Positions 545 through 8,320 of a stretch of DNA of 35,960 nt are shown piece by piece; positions within the stretch are counted from its first letter, which is position 1, and each line of letters starts with the position of its first letter. The stretch comes from Candidatus Thermoplasmatota archaeon. Lineage in GTDB: Archaea > Thermoplasmatota > Thermoplasmata > UBA10834. The translations under genes and the position numbers were made by a program. The stretch covers positions 1 through 35,960 of the forward strand of contig JAHIZT010000105.1 of assembly GCA_018814355.1 (NCBI GenBank), written 5' to 3'. The notes beneath the pieces are model-generated. The model saw nothing but the letters and a program-made list of their open reading frames with translations, searched no databases and was not told the DNA's origin.

Positions 545-1600
545 TCATCGGACATCGAGCATTTCTCTCTCTATCGCATAGAAACAATAGGGATCGTTGT
601 GGAACATGCCGGTGGTCGAGTAGGACACCGAGCTGCAGCCACCGCCGCACTTGAATTCGTTCTTGCACCCAGCGCAGTTAGGTCCAGGAATCATCTTACC
701 AGGCTTCCGGTTGTACGGGAAGCTGTCCTGACTCTCCCAGATATCCCTGAGCCGCCTCTGCCTGAGATTCCCCTCCAGGAACCTGTCGTTCCCCATCGAC
801 AGACAACCCACTATGTCTCCATCACTCGTAATCCCGATCGATGAAATGCCCGCGGTGCACCCATTCCAACTGCAGCCTGGAAGAAGCTTTGAGTAGTATC
901 CGTAGCAGTGGGCGCCAACGACAGGTAGGTCTTCGAATTTGTTATTGATACGCTCCTTGGCTATGAACAACGCGGTCGCATAGAACTCCTCTCGGGAGAG
1001 CGTTAGCTCGCGTTGGAAATTCCCGAAAGGCATGGCAATCTGAATCTGCCAATTCACGCCCTTTCCAAAGATGATCTCCTTGAGCTTGGGAAGGTCCTTG
1101 AAGTTGATCTTGCTCACAGTCGTGATCACAGTTGTCTGGATATTGTTTTCGCGAAGGAGCTCGATCGCGGACACGGTCTTATCCCAAGCGCCCTTCCCCC
1201 GGATTTGTTCGTGGTTCTCCTTCACGCCATCCAGGCTGATTCCGACGACCTTGGGTTCGATTCTCCTGACCTTGTCGATGTATCGGTCCATCATAGTTCC
1301 ATTGGACACGAAGCAGACGTTCATGCCGAGGTCCTTGGCGCTCCTTGCAACCGTGAAGCAGTCAGACCTGAGGAACGATTCTCCGCCCATCAAGGATACG
1401 TCAGCGCATCCCAGATCTGCGAGTTGCTCACATAGGTCGAAGGACTCTTTGGTTGTCAATTCGTTCTTTCTTGGGACTCCAGCAGAGGATCCGCAGTGAG
1501 TGCAACGAAGGTTGCACGCGAGAGTGAATTCCCACACGGCGCACGACAACTTTCGCTCTCTCAGAGGTCTCTGTCTAGATCTTCTTTGAGAAAGCCCCAT
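545..1600 (-). CDS. radical SAM/SPASM domain protein
   Basis: This 351-residue protein has the radical SAM cluster motif C29-x3-C33-x2-C36 (ACNLRCTHCGSS), followed by the MGGESF glycine-rich SAM-binding segment and a GISLDG strand. The C-terminal third is a SPASM-type domain: Cys in GCSWNGC and DIVGCLSMG, then CAGCKNEFKCGGGC and a last Cys in DPYCF, enough ligands for auxiliary iron-sulfur clusters. Known SPASM enzymes mostly modify ribosomal peptides or proteins or mature cofactors. Its ATG lies inside the end of the upstream small membrane protein gene (26-nt overlap), which implies translational coupling. That tight link to three paralogous small proteins suggests, but does not prove, that they are its substrates. 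A haem- or PQQ-type maturase role is an alternative. Confidence 0.85.
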   Translation of the reverse strand: MGLSQRRSRQRPLRERKLSCAVWEFTLACNLRCTHCGSSAGVPRKNELTTKESFDLCEQLADLGCADVSLMGGESFLRSDCFTVARSAKDLGMNVCFVSNGTMMDRYIDKVRRIEPKVVGISLDGVKENHEQIRGKGAWDKTVSAIELLRENNIQTTVITTVSKINFKDLPKLKEIIFGKGVNWQIQIAMPFGNFQRELTLSREEFYATALFIAKERINNKFEDLPVVGAHCYGYYSKLLPGCSWNGCTAGISSIGITSDGDIVGCLSMGNDRFLEGNLRQRRLRDIWESQDSFPYNRKPGKMIPGPNCAGCKNEFKCGGGCSSVSYSTTGMFHNDPYCFYAIEREMLDVR

Positions 1601-1934
1601 AGTAAGTCACTACGCCAAAGGAGGATGGACTGCTGAGAGCCGCGCCAATGGAGAACGAGAAAAACGCCAGAATGGCAAGCACTACCCCGAGTAGCCACCT
1701 CCGCTTACCGCTTCTTGCAGCCATCAAGGCGCCTGTTGTGGATGCGGAGTACGGATAGCTCCCTGATGATGTGCTGCCACCTATGAGGTATCCTGCGACG
1801 AACGAACCCACAATAACGACGGCTCCAGCAATGATTGTCCAAAAACGAGATCGCTCTTCCGCTTTGCGGATTTCGCGCATGTCGTTCTCCGTCAATTGAA
1901 GATCCCGACCGATATCAATCAGCTTCGAATTCAT
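1575..1934 (-). CDS. small membrane protein, paralog 1 of 3
   Basis: This 119-residue protein matches no family I can name. The layout is a soluble charged N-terminus (1-30, with DIGRDLQLTENDMREI), a membrane helix (31-53), a loop with GSYPYSAS (58-65), a basic patch RSGKRRW (74-80), a second helix (81-101) and a short tail ending YYGAFSKKI. The same order recurs in the two genes upstream: helix, YP[YL][AS], basic-W, helix, YG-x-x-[SH]-[KR]. The ATG at 1934 is preferred over the ATG at 1943 because the TATA box at 1960-1967 then lies 26-33 nt away, as expected for a leaderless message. The stop is TAG. Its 3' end overlaps the radical SAM gene by 26 nt. Confidence 0.75.
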   Translation of the reverse strand: MNSKLIDIGRDLQLTENDMREIRKAEERSRFWTIIAGAVVIVGSFVAGYLIGGSTSSGSYPYSASTTGALMAARSGKRRWLLGVVLAILAFFSFSIGAALSSPSSFGVVTYYGAFSKKI

Positions 1935-1957
1935 CCAACACATGAGAGCTTCAAACT

Positions 1958-1969
1958 GCTATAAAAGAG
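1958..1969 (-). promoter_or_regulatory. TATA box for small membrane protein 1 and radical SAM gene
   Basis: On the minus strand the sequence reads CTCTTTTATAGC, a good archaeal TATA element 26-33 nt upstream of the ATG at 1934. The spacing equals that of other leaderless promoters in the window. It would drive paralog 1 and the radical SAM gene separately from the genes further upstream. Confidence 0.55.
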
Positions 1970-2018
1970 CTGGTCTGGCGTTGACATAGATGTCATCGAG
2001 ATTGAAACGGCCAGAGTG

Positions 2019-2393
2019 TCATTTTCGGTGATGCACGCCGTACTTAGGGCTCACGCCAAACGTCCCGGAAGAAGTGACCCACGTAATAACGAAAAATGTC
2101 ATGAATGCGACTACGGCCACGAATACCGCTGCAATCCAGGACTTACGCGATGTTCCGACCAGAAGAACAGGGGTAAACAGCAAAGAAGCATATGGATAGC
2201 CTTCGTTGGATTGAGTTGCTGCATGTGGACTGGTCGCTTTCCCAGCTGCGAATCCTGCGAGGGCTGCGAGGATTGTCACTCCGACTTGAGCGATTCGTGA
2301 CAACACGGCCTTTCGCCTAGAGGCCTTGATAGTCTGGGCATCCTCAGGGGTGACGCCCAAGTTCCGAGCGATCTCCAATGGTCTCGAACCCAT
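2019..2393 (-). CDS. small membrane protein, paralog 2 of 3
   Basis: This 124-residue paralog of the flanking small proteins has an N-terminal soluble segment (PLEIARNLGVTPEDAQTIK, 5-23), a membrane helix (34-53) and a loop with EGYPYASLL (64-72). A hydrophobic stretch, basic TSRKSW (81-86), a second helix (87-107) and the tail SPKYGVHHRK follow. It is closest to paralog 1: both have a Ser-rich stretch then FGV shortly before the terminal YG motif. The ATG at 2393 has a weak TATA-like TTGTAATAG 24-32 nt upstream and no clear ribosome binding site. The function is unknown; the N-terminal LGVTPEDA segment looks like a small helical recognition element, possibly a leader-like region. Confidence 0.7.
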   Translation of the reverse strand: MGSRPLEIARNLGVTPEDAQTIKASRRKAVLSRIAQVGVTILAALAGFAAGKATSPHAATQSNEGYPYASLLFTPVLLVGTSRKSWIAAVFVAVVAFMTFFVITWVTSSGTFGVSPKYGVHHRK

Positions 2394-2460
2394 CAGAGCA
2401 TATGAGCTTTCCGCGGCTATTACAATTCTTCGGTCCTGTTGACCGAGAAGTCATGGCGGC

Positions 2461-2835
2461 CTATCTTGAGTAGGCTCCGTACATAAGCACCGGCGGATCA
2501 GGACGAGTGATAGAGTAGATTGTCCACCCAGCAAACCCGAGGATGAACCCGATGACCGCTAGTATTGACGTGCCCTTCCAGGAGCTTCTCCTAGCAATCA
2601 CCATCGAAGGGATTGCCATGCTAGCCATCGCGAGGGGATAGCCGCCATACGTTTGAGGAGGCGGGAATGCGTACCTCCCGGTCAGAATGCCCATGATTGT
2701 AGTGAGCACCGGAAGCGCCAGCTGTGCTATCCTGATGATCCGGGCAACTACGGCGGCCTTTCCAATCTCGGAGATGTCGGACTCTTGTATGCCGACGGGT
2801 CCTCCGATCTCCGAGGCCCTTTTCGGGTTAATCAT
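2461..2835 (-). CDS. small membrane protein, paralog 3 of 3
   Basis: This 124-residue third family member has an N-terminal segment (ASEIGGPVGIQESDISEIGK, 7-26), a membrane helix (33-55), a Pro-rich loop with GGYPLAMAS (64-72), basic ARRSSW (81-86), a second helix (90-109) and the tail VLMYGAYSR. It is the most diverged of the three but keeps every landmark. ATG 2835 is chosen over the adjacent TTG at 2838. It begins 36 nt after the methyltransferase stop, in the same direction, so co-transcription is likely. I do not recognise the family. Confidence 0.7.
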   Translation of the reverse strand: MINPKRASEIGGPVGIQESDISEIGKAAVVARIIRIAQLALPVLTTIMGILTGRYAFPPPQTYGGYPLAMASMAIPSMVIARRSSWKGTSILAVIGFILGFAGWTIYSITRPDPPVLMYGAYSR

Positions 2836-2871
2836 CAATCGTGAATCAGATTCGAATTCATTAGTGCTTTG

Positions 2872-4152
2872 TCATAGTTCAGATATCGGCGTCATCTTGC
2901 CAATGTCTGCGTTTCCTTCTGAGAAGCGGTGCAGCTCAGACTTCACCTTCTTTCTCAAGCCAACGTCTAGCATCAGATCGACAGTCTTGCAGTAGTGTCT
3001 GCTGACCATTTCGGGGCTTCTTCCGGATATGACGGATACTCTCGCCAGGTTCCAGTATGCGAGAGGGTTGCGCGGGTTGATGCTGAGAGATTCGGTCAAT
3101 CTTTTCTCAGCCTCGGCTAGATCCTTCATGGAGAAAGCCTTCACACCAGCGCTGAAGGATTTCTGTGCTTCCTGGAGAACGATACTCAAGTCAAACAGAG
3201 CTATAGGTCTGGGATCCAGGTTTTGTATGTATGCGAGCCGCTCCTTGCGCAATCCAGGGTTCTTCAGAGAATCGCGGACAAGTGATTCGACTCTTGAGAT
3301 GAACGATGCGAACTCTCTTTCCACCTCCAGTCCCTTCTTGCTTCGTGTCCAAAGCTCAAATGCCCTTTCGTGAAACCTCATATCGACAAGCTCTCTGAGG
3401 AATGCTCGTTCTTCCAAGACCTCTGGTTCGCTCAGCATGTTTGATGCAACCGCCTCATCAAGGAGCGCAAGCGGGACAATGGGATTACAGGGGGCAAGGC
3501 TCGAGATCAGTTCGTGTAAACGGTTTTTGCTCGCAATCGCACTAGGAGCCGAACGCGCCTTTTCGATCCAATTCTCCAGAGGTATCAGGATGAACGAGTC
3601 TTGCATGCCTCGAATGTTCCTTAGCCGCTTTCGAAAGCATGCGAAGAACATTTTCTCCTCTGGGTTGAACTGCTTCCTGCACTTGACCCTCATCCCAGGC
3701 TCGTAGGTGTGCGTCTTCTCCTTTTCTCTGACAGCCTCGCAGAAGCCGGTCAGCTCAAGCTCTTGTTTGAGATGCGCGAAGGTAAAACCAGATTTGTGCT
3801 GAAGTCCCGGGCTATCTATCCCGAAGATCCATTGAAGCGTGGTCTTTCTTTGCTCATTCTTCGACCGGAGCAGTTTCTTGAAGGAGCGTGAAAGATCTGG
3901 AGTTTCGAGCACCAGCTCTGCCCCCGGTTTCAGGACCCTGAACCACTCGGCGAGCACATACCTAAGACGAGCTAGGTCGAAATGCTCAATCAGCTGTGCT
4001 GCCTCAATCACATCAATGCTGTTAGATTCATAGGGTAGGGAGGAGACGTCAGCGAGCATGTCCGCAACGGACCCGTCGAACCTGTCGATGTTGATGTATC
4101 CAGGCTTGTAGGTGGATCCACATCCAAGATTGATTCTGAGCGCTTCTGCCAT
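2872..4152 (-). CDS. class I SAM-dependent methyltransferase with C-terminal TPR-like region
   Basis: The 426-residue protein opens with a class I methyltransferase domain: motif I INLGCG (7-12), acidic post-motif I NIDRFDG (21-27), SLPYESNSIDVIEAAQLIEHF (38-58, with the typical D-x-I/V strand) and VLKPGAELVLETPD (73-86). This is the Methyltransf_11-like pattern. The middle section (about 150-320) is helical and unassigned. Residues near 330-400 (a TPR-like AEAEKRLTESLSINP, then AYWNLARVS) look like tetratricopeptide repeats, suggesting protein or peptide binding. The gene heads the minus-strand cassette with the three small membrane proteins and the radical SAM enzyme. Its ATG is 25-30 nt from a TATA box, so it is probably leaderless. 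The substrate is unknown. Confidence 0.75.
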   Translation of the reverse strand: MAEALRINLGCGSTYKPGYINIDRFDGSVADMLADVSSLPYESNSIDVIEAAQLIEHFDLARLRYVLAEWFRVLKPGAELVLETPDLSRSFKKLLRSKNEQRKTTLQWIFGIDSPGLQHKSGFTFAHLKQELELTGFCEAVREKEKTHTYEPGMRVKCRKQFNPEEKMFFACFRKRLRNIRGMQDSFILIPLENWIEKARSAPSAIASKNRLHELISSLAPCNPIVPLALLDEAVASNMLSEPEVLEERAFLRELVDMRFHERAFELWTRSKKGLEVEREFASFISRVESLVRDSLKNPGLRKERLAYIQNLDPRPIALFDLSIVLQEAQKSFSAGVKAFSMKDLAEAEKRLTESLSINPRNPLAYWNLARVSVISGRSPEMVSRHYCKTVDLMLDVGLRKKVKSELHRFSEGNADIGKMTPISEL

Positions 4153-4530: not shown

Positions 4531-7296
4531 GTGAAGCGCTCACGCAAGGCGGCCTTATTGCAGCTCAGGATGGGTAGGCTAGCCCACACCATAGGGATAG
4601 CTTCTGGGCTCGCACTAGCATTGACAGCGGTGATCGCTTACGGCCTGATCAATTGGGATTTCCTCAGGAATGCCTCCGAGTTCTGGGTCACTCTCAAATG
4701 GATAATCCCGCTCACTGCCGGAGTTGCTGTATCGGCAGTCGCGCTCGCGATGAAGTGGGAGCCCTACTACACGGACAGGGAAGAGACTCACTTCGTAATG
4801 AGCATAGTCGCGATGATCGCCCCAGCATTCATAATTGCGCTAATAGTCCTAGACGAATACAACTACGTCCAGCTTGGTAGGCCTGACTGGCTGTATCCAG
4901 CCTCGTTGCTCGGCATCTGTCTCACGGAGATATCCCTCGCGATGACGTGGGAGGGCTCGAGCACTCGCAGGACGATCAGCTTCGTCTCAGCGATATTCCC
5001 CATCGCGCTTCTAGTCTTCCCGATGGTCTTTCATTTCACACCGCAGGAATTGGCGAGCATACTGCCCATGGCCTACCTCGGCAGCGCGGCCGCCATTCAA
5101 CTCAGCGGCTCGATGTTGCACATTATCGCCAGTTCGACCTCGGTCCAGCAACGCGAGGTCCTGAAGGCGAGCGACAGCAAACTGAAGGAGCAGCTCAAGG
5201 ACATCGACAACAAGAGAAAGGCGCTTGCCTACCGCGCAGATGCTCTAAGGTCCAGGGAATCCGACCTCGAGACGTACGAGAAGAGGATCACGGACGAGAT
5301 GGCGTCTGTCGAGGAACACAAGACCCAGGTCGTGGCCAGCGAGAACGAAATCGAGCAAAGGCTACAGCAGTTGCGTGCAGACAGGGAACGGCTCTCTAAA
5401 CAGGAGGCGGCTTTCGAGAGCGAGCGCGAAACCCTCCGAATCAAGCTCGCAGACGTAGATTCTCAGAGGAAGGAACTCGAGAAGAGATCGAAGAGCATCG
5501 TTGCGAAAGAAGAATCACTCTTGTCCAAGGAGAGGGAGGCTAACAACCTCCTCCTCGAGGCACAGTCCAAAGACCGGGAGATGAAGAACAGGCTCTCCGA
5601 AATCGAGGCGGAGGAGTCCACCCAGGAAACGATGAGGAAGGAGCTGGAGTCGCTCCAGGATGCCCTCGCGGAGCGGGAGAAGCAGATAGGCATCAGGGAG
5701 AGCGCTCTGGACATGAAGAGCCTCGAGATAGTCGCAGCCAGAGAGCAGCTGGGCACCGTCGCCGCCGAGAAGACAAACATCAAGAGCGTAGAGCAGCAGC
5801 TGCTGATGAGACAGGAGTCGCTCTCGGAGAAGGAGATCAACCTCAGGGCGATGGAGGACGATCTAAGAAAGAAAGCAGAGCGCGCGGAGCGGCTCACGGG
5901 ACGCGCGGACAAACAGATGAACGAGCTTGTCGAGAAGGAGAGTTCGCTTCTGAAGCGCGAACAGACTATTGCGGAGAAGGAAGCCGAACTGAGGGCGGAG
6001 ATAGAGAAGCTGAACTCAGGCCTTGAAGAGATGCAGAGCGCAAAGGCCACGATAACCAATCATGAAAAACAGTATTTCGATCTGACTGAGACGACGAGAT
6101 CGAAGCTCACAGCCGTCTCCGTCAGGGAAGAGGAGATGGCCAGGAAGATGGCCGCCCTGGAGAAGCGCGAGGAGAAGATCAAGGAACTGGAGTTGCGGCT
6201 CAAGACCGAGCATGATTCCATGAACTCCAAGCTCAGAGGGCTCCTGGCGAAGGAGAAGGACCTCAAGGCAGAGGAGGCGGAAGTTGGTCTGCGGCATGCG
6301 GAGCTCAGAGCCATGGAGCGAGAGATTCTCGAGAGCGTTGAGGATGTCGAGGAGGTCCGGGCGGAGGTTCCTGAGGAGGATGAGGGGCAGGAGAAAACGC
6401 TTGATTACCGCGAGAAGCGCCTGGTGGAGAAAGAGAGGGAGGCTAAGTCGCGGCTCTATCAGCGGGAGAAGGAGCTCGAGAAGCGCGAGGATTCCCTCAG
6501 AATGCATCTCCAGAAGGACGTCGAGGGGATGGAGGAGGCCGTCGAGGAGGAGTACTCCGAGCAAAAGGTCAAGACAGGCATGGAACGCCTGGACGACCTT
6601 CTGATGGGCGGAATGCCGTTCGGGTCAAATGTGCTCTTTGTGGGTCCGCCGTTCATTGGCAAGGAAGTGGCCATGCTAATGTTCATCGCCGAAGGACTCA
6701 GAAAGGGGGTTCCGGCTGTGATCGTCACGACCTCTCGTCCGCCCTCTGAGATATCCAAGGAGATGGCGCCGATACTTCCCGCCTTCATGGAGTTCGAGCA
6801 GGTGGGATTGGTGTACTGGATAGATGCGTCCGGCATGCAGACTGGCGTTAGGGACGAATCTGTGACCGAGACAAAAGTGACGAGGGTTTCGGGCCCTGGG
6901 AACTTCAAAGCCATAACCGATGCGGTAGACGCGTGCATCAAGTCCATTGCGAGGCAGAAGCAGCCGTATTTCAGGGTCGCCTACATGTCCCTCTCGATGA
7001 GCATCACGCAGTCGGACGAGAAGAGCTCCTTCCAGTTCATCCAGAGCCTGGCCGGGAGACTGAAACAGGGTGGTGCGGTCTCGGTGTTTGCGGTTGAGCG
7101 CGGGATGCATACGGAGCAGCAGCTCGAGTCGATCCAGCATCACATGACGGGAGCCGTTCAGTTCAAGACAGACAAACAGAAGACCTTGCTGAGTGTCCAG
7201 GGCGTCGGCGATGCCCAGACCCGGGACTGGATAGAGTACAGACACAGTAGCAAGGCGCTGATGATCGGAGCATTTTCACTTGAGAGGATAAGGTAG
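4531..7296 (+). CDS. six-helix membrane protein with long coiled coil and degenerate KaiC-like domain
   Basis: The 921-residue protein has three parts. Residues 19-200 contain six predicted membrane helices (about 19-40, 56-75, 87-107, 121-140, 148-168, 175-200). Residues 208-670 are an almost unbroken charged coiled coil rich in K/E/R/L heptads. Residues 678-921 match the RAD55/KaiC-type RecA fold, opening with VKTGMERLDDLLMGGMPFGS. The P-loop reads GPPFIGKE (705-712), with Glu where Ser/Thr coordinates magnesium. The strand expected to carry the Walker B acid (VAYMSLSMSI) has none. ATP hydrolysis is therefore doubtful, and a scaffold or sensor role at the membrane is my inference. An in-frame TAG at 4522 limits the start to GTG 4531 or later. 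The stop is TAG. Confidence 0.8.
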   Translation: MKRSRKAALLQLRMGRLAHTIGIASGLALALTAVIAYGLINWDFLRNASEFWVTLKWIIPLTAGVAVSAVALAMKWEPYYTDREETHFVMSIVAMIAPAFIIALIVLDEYNYVQLGRPDWLYPASLLGICLTEISLAMTWEGSSTRRTISFVSAIFPIALLVFPMVFHFTPQELASILPMAYLGSAAAIQLSGSMLHIIASSTSVQQREVLKASDSKLKEQLKDIDNKRKALAYRADALRSRESDLETYEKRITDEMASVEEHKTQVVASENEIEQRLQQLRADRERLSKQEAAFESERETLRIKLADVDSQRKELEKRSKSIVAKEESLLSKEREANNLLLEAQSKDREMKNRLSEIEAEESTQETMRKELESLQDALAEREKQIGIRESALDMKSLEIVAAREQLGTVAAEKTNIKSVEQQLLMRQESLSEKEINLRAMEDDLRKKAERAERLTGRADKQMNELVEKESSLLKREQTIAEKEAELRAEIEKLNSGLEEMQSAKATITNHEKQYFDLTETTRSKLTAVSVREEEMARKMAALEKREEKIKELELRLKTEHDSMNSKLRGLLAKEKDLKAEEAEVGLRHAELRAMEREILESVEDVEEVRAEVPEEDEGQEKTLDYREKRLVEKEREAKSRLYQREKELEKREDSLRMHLQKDVEGMEEAVEEEYSEQKVKTGMERLDDLLMGGMPFGSNVLFVGPPFIGKEVAMLMFIAEGLRKGVPAVIVTTSRPPSEISKEMAPILPAFMEFEQVGLVYWIDASGMQTGVRDESVTETKVTRVSGPGNFKAITDAVDACIKSIARQKQPYFRVAYMSLSMSITQSDEKSSFQFIQSLAGRLKQGGAVSVFAVERGMHTEQQLESIQHHMTGAVQFKTDKQKTLLSVQGVGDAQTRDWIEYRHSSKALMIGAFSLERIR

Positions 7297-7357: not shown

Positions 7358-8320
7358 ATGATTCAGCAAGGCAATGGCATCCTGGTCAAGATGGATGGAT
7401 GCTCGTTCAGGTTCGACCCGAAACGCGTCCTCAATGACGAGGTGTCCATGATATCCCATGCGCACACGGATCACCTTCCCACCTCATTTGAGAGGCCTCT
7501 TGCGATATGTTCGCCCGTTACGAGAGATTTCGTGAAGGTCCGGAGGAAGAGAGAGATAGAGATATGCTCGGACGACAGGGTGAAGGTGCTCGAGGCCGGG
7601 CACATCGCTGGGTCGAGAATGTTCCTTGTCCAGGGAGAATCCAAAGTCCTGTATACAGGGGATTTCTGCACCCGGGAAAAGAAGAGCACGAAGGCGGCGA
7701 AGCCCCACAAATGCGATATACTGATCACGGAGGCCACCTATGGAAAGCCTCGATACGTCTTCCCGGACCATGCCGAGATGATGTCCGTCGTCAGGGATTG
7801 GCTGGATGACATAGTGAAGCGTGATGGCAGTGCGGTGCTCTTCGCATACCCCCTTGGGAAGTCTCAGGAACTCACAGTCTCACTGAAGGACCTTCCATTG
7901 GTTCTCCACCCAACAATCGCCGACAACAACCGTCTGCTCAGGAAGCACGGATACGATCTTGTCGAGAAGGAGTTCGACGGGCATCACACGAAACGGCCCT
8001 TCGTGTACATCACTTCTGGATTGGGGAAGGACGCGGAGCGGGTCGAGTCGCTCGTCAGGCATGGGGCCAAGACCGCGGCATTCTCGGGCTGGGCTCTGGA
8101 CAAGGGTTTCACATATCAATCAGGTGTCGACGAGGCATTTCCTGTATCGGACCACTGTGGATTCGATGAGCTTGTGGAGTTCGTGAGGAAGTGCGGCCCG
8201 AAGCAGGTGTTCACGACACACGGCTTCGTGAAGGAGTATGCCATGCACCTTCGAAGAAGTCTGGGGATCCAAGCTCAGCCGCTCATATCCAGGCAGCGTA
8301 CCCTGGATCACTTCTGCTGA
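7358..8320 (+). CDS. metallo-beta-lactamase-fold hydrolase, RNA/DNA exonuclease-like
   Basis: The 320-residue protein has metal-site motif H34-x-H36-x-D38-H39 (SHAHTDHL), a downstream GHIAGS histidine, YTGDFC (Asp bridging ligand) and later SDHCGFDELVEF and TTHGF, which match the C-terminal motifs of the mRNA 3'-end processing/exonuclease branch (COG1236-like). It is shorter than full beta-CASP enzymes such as CPSF73 or RNase J, so any CASP insert is reduced. It probably cleaves nucleic acid using two zinc ions. The start ATG is preceded by AGGT. It is 61 nt downstream of the coiled-coil gene on the same strand, and its last 13 nt overlap the end of convergent cbf5. The natural substrate is not evident. 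Confidence 0.8.
   Translation: MIQQGNGILVKMDGCSFRFDPKRVLNDEVSMISHAHTDHLPTSFERPLAICSPVTRDFVKVRRKREIEICSDDRVKVLEAGHIAGSRMFLVQGESKVLYTGDFCTREKKSTKAAKPHKCDILITEATYGKPRYVFPDHAEMMSVVRDWLDDIVKRDGSAVLFAYPLGKSQELTVSLKDLPLVLHPTIADNNRLLRKHGYDLVEKEFDGHHTKRPFVYITSGLGKDAERVESLVRHGAKTAAFSGWALDKGFTYQSGVDEAFPVSDHCGFDELVEFVRKCGPKQVFTTHGFVKEYAMHLRRSLGIQAQPLISRQRTLDHFC

Follow-up and report, generated by a model that had tools for sequence, protein, structure and literature searches.

A candidate RiPP-like cassette of small, usually membrane-anchored proteins, a splicease-related radical SAM enzyme and a TPR-methyltransferase

We analysed a stretch of 35,960 nucleotides (the window) from a Candidatus Thermoplasmatota archaeon (contig JAHIZT010000105.1, positions 1-35,960), for which the close relatives found are Thermoplasmata. 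Five minus-strand genes at 545-4152 encode a methyltransferase fused to a tetratricopeptide repeat (TPR)-like domain, three small proteins and a radical S-adenosylmethionine (SAM)/SPASM enzyme. Our preferred reading, which we hold with moderate confidence, is that this cassette is a modification system resembling those of ribosomally synthesised and post-translationally modified peptides (RiPPs) and directed at small, usually membrane-anchored proteins: the SPASM enzyme would edit the backbone at a tyrosine in the C-terminal tail, and a methyltransferase step would follow. Judged by sequence, the lead enzyme has a relative that cuts tyrosine pieces out of protein backbones, and the two cassette enzymes probably alter the small proteins chemically. 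A putative substrate and its enzyme can now be assigned to a previously uncharacterised cassette, which a quarter of the searched Asgard genomes carry and which several further phyla have too.

A new class of modified membrane peptides had been proposed when the window was read from its sequence alone. The recurrence of the cassette, the co-occurrence of its genes, the invariant Tyr and the position of the enzyme on the splicease side of its tree support that proposal as a reading in which the modification is predicted. It stands, now with a specific chemistry that is open to direct test.

A recurring five-gene cassette

Re-checking of the open reading frame (ORF) coordinates confirmed the layout given by the sequence-only reading, with five minus-strand genes lying together and 26 nt shared by the ORFs of the SPASM enzyme and small protein 1.

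545-1600, minus strand: radical SAM/SPASM enzyme, 351 amino acids; CNLRCTHC cluster motif, seven-Cys SPASM region; relative of the PlpX splicease and the GDL maturases
1575-1943, minus strand: small protein 1, 122 amino acids; leader-like N-terminal helix, two predicted transmembrane (TM) segments, loop SYPYSA, tail VVTYYGAFSKKI
2019-2393, minus strand: small protein 2, 124 amino acids; loop GYPYAS, tail GVSPKYGVHHRK
2461-2838, minus strand: small protein 3, 125 amino acids; loop GYPLAM, tail PPVLMYGAYSR (listed start TTG at 2838; the ATG at 2835 is the likelier start)
2872-4152, minus strand: class I SAM methyltransferase fused to a helical TPR-like domain, 426 amino acids

Searches with both the enzyme and the small proteins showed that the three kinds of gene recur together in Thermoplasmata, an SM23-78 euryarchaeote bin, Nanohaloarchaeota, Helarchaeota, Heimdallarchaeota, Lokiarchaeota, Thorarchaeota, Elusimicrobia, one Margulisbacterium and one Geobacter bin. 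The enzyme was present in 58 of 228 Asgard genomes, and candidate precursors (homologues of the small proteins) adjoined it at all 20 Asgard loci that were fetched. Wherever the contig extends far enough, a related locus nearly always has a methyltransferase homologue adjoining the enzyme; the exception is L053, where an apparent transposase-type gene takes its place. Because many of the carriers are metagenome bins, single odd placements such as those in Geobacter and Margulisbacteria may reflect errors of binning. The overall picture holds without these two.

Precursor and modifying-enzyme genes were thus adjacent and strictly co-occurring, as is expected of a RiPP system. Among 150 relatives, strong enzyme matches (E < 1e-100) and strong small-protein matches fell in the identical six genomes (p ~7e-11 if independent). 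In 199 Elusimicrobia genomes the enzyme was found in 13 of 13 precursor genomes and the precursor in 13 of 17 enzyme genomes (p ~3e-17); both p values ignore shared ancestry. At strong scores, therefore, the small proteins keep company with a SPASM enzyme (6/6 in Thermoplasmata, 13/13 in Elusimicrobia) rather than occurring mostly without a radical SAM neighbour. The enzymes of the four enzyme-only Elusimicrobia genomes are more distant, and two of these genomes have a neighbouring gene whose product carries repeated YGV motifs (L192:4856-5095 and L193:5719-6189).

No further small-protein copies were found in the source genome, where the other SPASM proteins are only distant (best 28-33% identity to the cassette enzyme). 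The Thermoplasmata genome G013 has two unlinked small-protein copies with no enzyme nearby (L196:3621-3992, tail MYGVFHS; L197:2909-3370, tail EYGVYHS), and it has the cassette too.

The small proteins and their tail tyrosine

The three small proteins of the window are paralogues, as had been supposed, with pairwise identities of 24-30%, invariant Y63-P64 and Y115-G116, and two predicted TM segments each. Across the family the plan is a leader-like N-terminal segment followed by zero, one or two TM helices and a tail. The leader-like segment reads L..IG..LGV...DI..I.K, with MKKLYEIGAKTGLT..EV as the Elusimicrobia version and LYKIGKELGLSRKEI as that of Loki. Precursors that vary widely yet keep a leader-like N-terminus and certain core residues, as these do, are a further trait of RiPP systems. 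Among 29 homologues of the Thermoplasmata/Nanohalo type, at 27% mean column identity, just three columns were invariant: the loop Y-P and the tail Y. Together with the recurrence of the cassette across two domains of life, this is more than chance would give.

The tail Tyr was present in 116 of 117 precursors found with profile hidden Markov models, a value that gives the share of profile hits with a Tyr-containing pattern near the end and is not an unbiased column count; pattern-free MAFFT alignments agree on the conserved Tyr. The single precursor without it is a short ORF (L056:6735-6926). The inventory was made with profiles because a regular expression for the tail only is unspecific and matches random ORFs too. 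Most precursors have an aromatic residue six positions upstream of the Tyr, and the residue after it (+1) is usually Gly, Ala or Ser. The tail consensus is F/Y-G-x-x-x-x-Y-G-V-Y/F in the archaeal group, T-Y-x-P-G-T-x-Y-G-S-I-x-P-x-D-F in Thor, Y-P-x-G-T-x-Y-S-T/S-I/V-x-x-K-D-F in Loki and P-G-Y-P-C-G-T-R-Y-Y/F-T-V-S-x-x-D-F in Elusimicrobia. X-Tyr-Gly itself is present in all three window proteins and in 42 of 50 archaeal-group precursors, and Ser, Tyr, Phe or Ala stands at +1 in other subfamilies. The sequence-only reading had set the small proteins apart from classical peptide precursors; this has to be qualified for the tail, where the motif resembles a known precursor site, the X-Tyr-Gly of spliceotides.

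Precursors may have two, one or no TM segments, and all of these types share the leader-like segment and the tail Tyr. The precursors of Helarchaeota (54 and 65 amino acids; L037:7581-7745 and 7782-7979, with their enzyme at L037:7992-9002) have no TM segment and keep only GYPF/GYPY and YGVY, which is the strongest sign that the enzymes require the motifs and not the membrane helices. The TM helices are dispensable. The earlier description of membrane-embedded proteins with conserved aromatic motifs therefore holds for the window proteins, while membrane embedding is not an essential feature of the family. Searches of Pfam and NCBIfam gave no family for the small proteins; weak matches to GPHR_N, DUF3792 and PalH were set aside as apparent hydrophobicity matches. 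The AlphaFold model of one small protein was poor (pLDDT 66).

Similar motifs are found beside related enzymes in other systems, where the adjoining precursors carry LYG, PYG, MYG or MYA. The Nif11 precursor beside the Nostoc TIGR04103 enzyme has an LYG motif and the end SIALYGLPPELF, and the DUF1843 peptides beside GDL enzymes have N-terminal starts MLYGG, KPYGV and PMYMA or VLYAA, PMYAA and QPYGA. On an Agathobacter rectalis plasmid, an unannotated 68-amino-acid ORF (L142:4707-4913) with an MYG motif and the end FGPVMYGTGVRM (GPVMYGTGVRM) lies upstream of a related radical SAM gene (38% identity), beside tuf and fusA, and it is probably an overlooked precursor.

These systems bear on the possibility that the small proteins are membrane partners, or electron-transfer or docking subunits, of enzymes that act on another molecule. 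Such a role would fit proteins that are mostly membrane-anchored and encoded in several copies per cassette, and their modification is itself a prediction. Against it, a cassette may hold anything from one to at least six copies, which diverge fast; the TM helices can be dispensed with; conservation is confined to short Tyr motifs; and beside related enzymes these motifs recur in scaffolds of unrelated kinds (Nif11, DUF1843, a Kunitz fusion and YGV repeats). This is the pattern of precursors and not of subunits, and we consider a partner role improbable. The small proteins are very probably substrates, and there is good reason to place the modification site at the tail Tyr.

Some further proteins beside related enzymes were noted. 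At L144 and L145 each DUF1843 'GDL' peptide has an N-terminal X-Tyr-[Gly/Ala/Met], which suggests that GDL maturases act at the same type of site. Repeated AYGVAPVRP, KYGVAPVRP and EKYGV motifs adjoin outlying Elusimicrobia enzymes of the same family (L193:5719-6189 and L192:4856-5095). At L194 and L195, in the Elusimicrobia-phylum genomes G394 and G489, the enzyme stands beside an MFS-like protein and a protein of 390-493 amino acids that ends in a segment of PVYPIGI/PYYPLGI type, common to both loci, and is possibly another type of substrate.

Placement of the SPASM enzyme

The cassette enzyme matched the Pfam models Radical_SAM (3.9e-24) and SPASM (4.3e-07). It has a CxxxCxxC radical SAM core and a seven-Cys SPASM region, and the Cys positions are conserved across the clade. 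Its best NCBIfam models were TIGR04103 (nif11-class maturase 3, nif11_3; 203 bits) and TIGR03913 (GDL; 179 bits), both scores being far under the family cutoffs, and the same two models ranked first for other members of the clade. TIGR04103 presumably corresponds to IPR026482. PlpX, the splicease of the PlpXY system, has been described as belonging to IPR026482 (PMC11002830).

In a tree of 60 sequences the cassette enzymes formed one clade (99/99) with two halves, one archaeal and the other Loki/Thor/bacterial. The Nostoc TIGR04103 enzyme and the GDL enzymes lay next to this clade on its side of the tree, and MftC and the haem enzymes lay opposite, across a branch with support of 96/77. The approximately unbiased (AU) test did not reject a grouping of the cassette with the splicease and GDL enzymes (p 0.17). 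Seven residues (R44, W184, Q185, Q187, G234, W245 and G265) are common to the cassette and the splicease/GDL side and were found in none of the 13 rows from the MftC/haem side.

One could suppose instead that the enzyme is a cofactor or haem maturase of the PQQ, mycofactocin or haem type and that its neighbours are incidental, and weak scores to the AhbD, NirJ and MftC models point that way. MftC, AhbC/D and NirJ share the superfamily and domain architecture of the cassette enzyme. However, they lie on the other side of the tree and have none of the seven diagnostic residues, and the AU test rejected a grouping of the cassette with MftC (2.4e-05) or with the haem enzymes (6.7e-79). PqqE was compared by model score only, its model scoring far below the splicease and GDL models. 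The exact co-occurrence with the precursor at strong scores also speaks against a cofactor role. The sequence-only reading had named clustering with a haem or PQQ maturase as the result that would count against it; the enzyme does not cluster in this way, and the idea is largely refuted and very unlikely.

Proposed reaction and its alternatives

The PlpXY splicease excises tyramine (-135.0757 Da) at X-Tyr-Gly, with MYG and LYG as natural sites (PMC10533398, PMC11002830). Like the cassette, it has multiple precursors encoded next door, with X-Tyr-Gly in the tail as in most archaeal-group precursors of the cassette, and its enzyme shares the tree side and the diagnostic residues. We propose that the N-terminal helix-turn-helix-like segment of each small protein would serve as a leader bound by the enzymes. 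The SPASM enzyme would target the tail motif [aromatic]-x(5)-Tyr-[Gly], and by homology its likeliest reaction would be to remove tyramine from X-Tyr-Gly, so that the backbone would retain an alpha-keto-beta-amino (ketoamide) residue. The evidence leans towards tyramine excision, although the case falls just short of even.

In Pfam the methyltransferase-TPR protein matched class I methyltransferases (Methyltransf_11, 7.9e-08), with weak TPR matches; TPR similarity is clear at the profile level (profile positions ~331-395). AlphaFold gave a confident two-part protein (pLDDT 94) in which a class I methyltransferase fold gives way, at about residue 165, to a domain made wholly of helices, and Foldseek matches were restricted to the methyltransferase part. 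In the PlpXY system the partner PlpY is a RiPP recognition element (RRE) (PMC11002830). No homologue of PlpY or Nif11 was found at any cassette locus, and the 14-28 residues before the cluster motif of the enzyme are too few to hold a fused RRE, which makes the TPR domain a candidate precursor binder that would substitute for PlpY. The methyltransferase may then methylate the product, plausibly at the acidic, enolisable carbon beside the new ketone, a step that we regard as plausible but somewhat less likely than the excision itself. A precedent exists in the aminopyruvatide (Apy) pathway, in which the methyltransferase ApyS acts on a peptide alpha-keto-beta-amino unit of a RiPP and C-methylates the carbon of an alpha-keto acid; the ketone there is made from a C-terminal Asp by an MNIO, and no related enzyme takes part (PMC10635010).

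Once modified, the protein would present an electrophilic ketoamide within the membrane or at its surface, and might serve, for instance, as a covalent protease inhibitor. Ketoamides are known in use against proteases (PMC11002830). This use, together with a Kunitz domain in one precursor, makes protease inhibition one possible role, a guess among several to which we give little weight. In that precursor, from the Geobacter bin (L059:7493-7969), the domain is of the Kunitz/BPTI protease-inhibitor type (Pfam 1e-13) and separates the leader-TM part from the core motif.

Several findings weigh against this scheme. The enzyme scored far below the TIGR04103 cutoff (203 versus 725 bits; the Nostoc reference scored 853), so the cassette enzymes are relatives and not members of that family. 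The lack of PlpY, Nif11 and a fused RRE is a second point. The residue at +1 is not always Gly: archaeal-group precursors other than the 42 have N, D, E or S, and it is Ser in 17 of 17 Loki precursors and Tyr or Phe in 11 of 11 from Elusimicrobia. Strict X-Tyr-Gly splicing cannot therefore cover every subfamily, and those of Loki and Elusimicrobia may do other chemistry. The second invariant motif, the loop Y-P, is unexplained by a scheme centred on the tail Tyr, and in a two-TM protein the membrane would separate loop from tail, so that a single cytosolic step is harder to picture.

Another possibility is a different Tyr-directed radical reaction, in which the tail Tyr is cross-linked to the -6 aromatic or to the loop Y-P-Y, or Tyr residues are otherwise changed, and no tyramine is excised. 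Seven-Cys SPASM enzymes carry out many cross-linking reactions. Such a reaction would suit an invariant Tyr beside a changeable +1 (G, A, S, Y, F, N, D), a -6 aromatic that hardly varies and, in the Thermoplasmata/Nanohalo group, an invariant loop Y-P. On the other hand, among characterised enzymes the splicease family is the nearest relative, and its X-Tyr-[Gly/Ala] motifs match; the Thor, Loki and Agathobacter systems have either no loop Y-P or a different one. We regard this alternative as a serious but minority one.

Returning to tyramine excision, the cassette differs from the PlpXY system in that it lacks a Nif11/NHLP leader and a PlpY/RRE, its precursors are usually membrane-anchored, its TPR-methyltransferase is obligatory and +1 is often not Gly outside the archaeal group. 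We place it as RiPP-like and splicease-related but outside TIGR04103, because it fell below the score cutoff and had neither the Nif11 leader nor the PlpY partner. The GDL system (TIGR03913 enzyme) resembles it in that three small paralogues in tandem, the DUF1843 trio peptides with X-Tyr-[Gly/Ala/Met], are followed immediately downstream by a related enzyme, and its Aureibacter version includes a methyltransferase. The GDL precursors, however, are soluble, about 60 amino acids long and carry the motif at the N-terminus, and there is no TPR-methyltransferase of the cassette family. No GDL chemistry was found in the literature searched.

Taken whole, the scheme would describe a cross-domain family, common in Asgard archaea, of membrane-displayed, backbone-edited proteins. 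A splicease-type enzyme, together with a TPR-methyltransferase, would make a methylated alpha-keto-beta-amino unit at their fixed tail Tyr, and ribosomal beta-amino acids would then occur on membrane proteins of the archaea that are most closely related to eukaryotes; we put this forward tentatively. If the splicease-like reading is true, beta-amino-acid backbone editing extends from secretory bacterial peptides to archaeal membrane-anchored proteins with a built-in electrophile. The tail variants (G, A, S, Y or F after the Tyr) would then be a natural series on what such enzymes accept.

In the window the cassette borders a housekeeping stretch (Cbf5, SecY, ribosomal proteins, exosome, proteasome). 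Two KaiC/Rad51-like ATPase genes lie on its flanks (4531-7296 and 1-391), and one of them encodes a long coiled coil and membrane segments.

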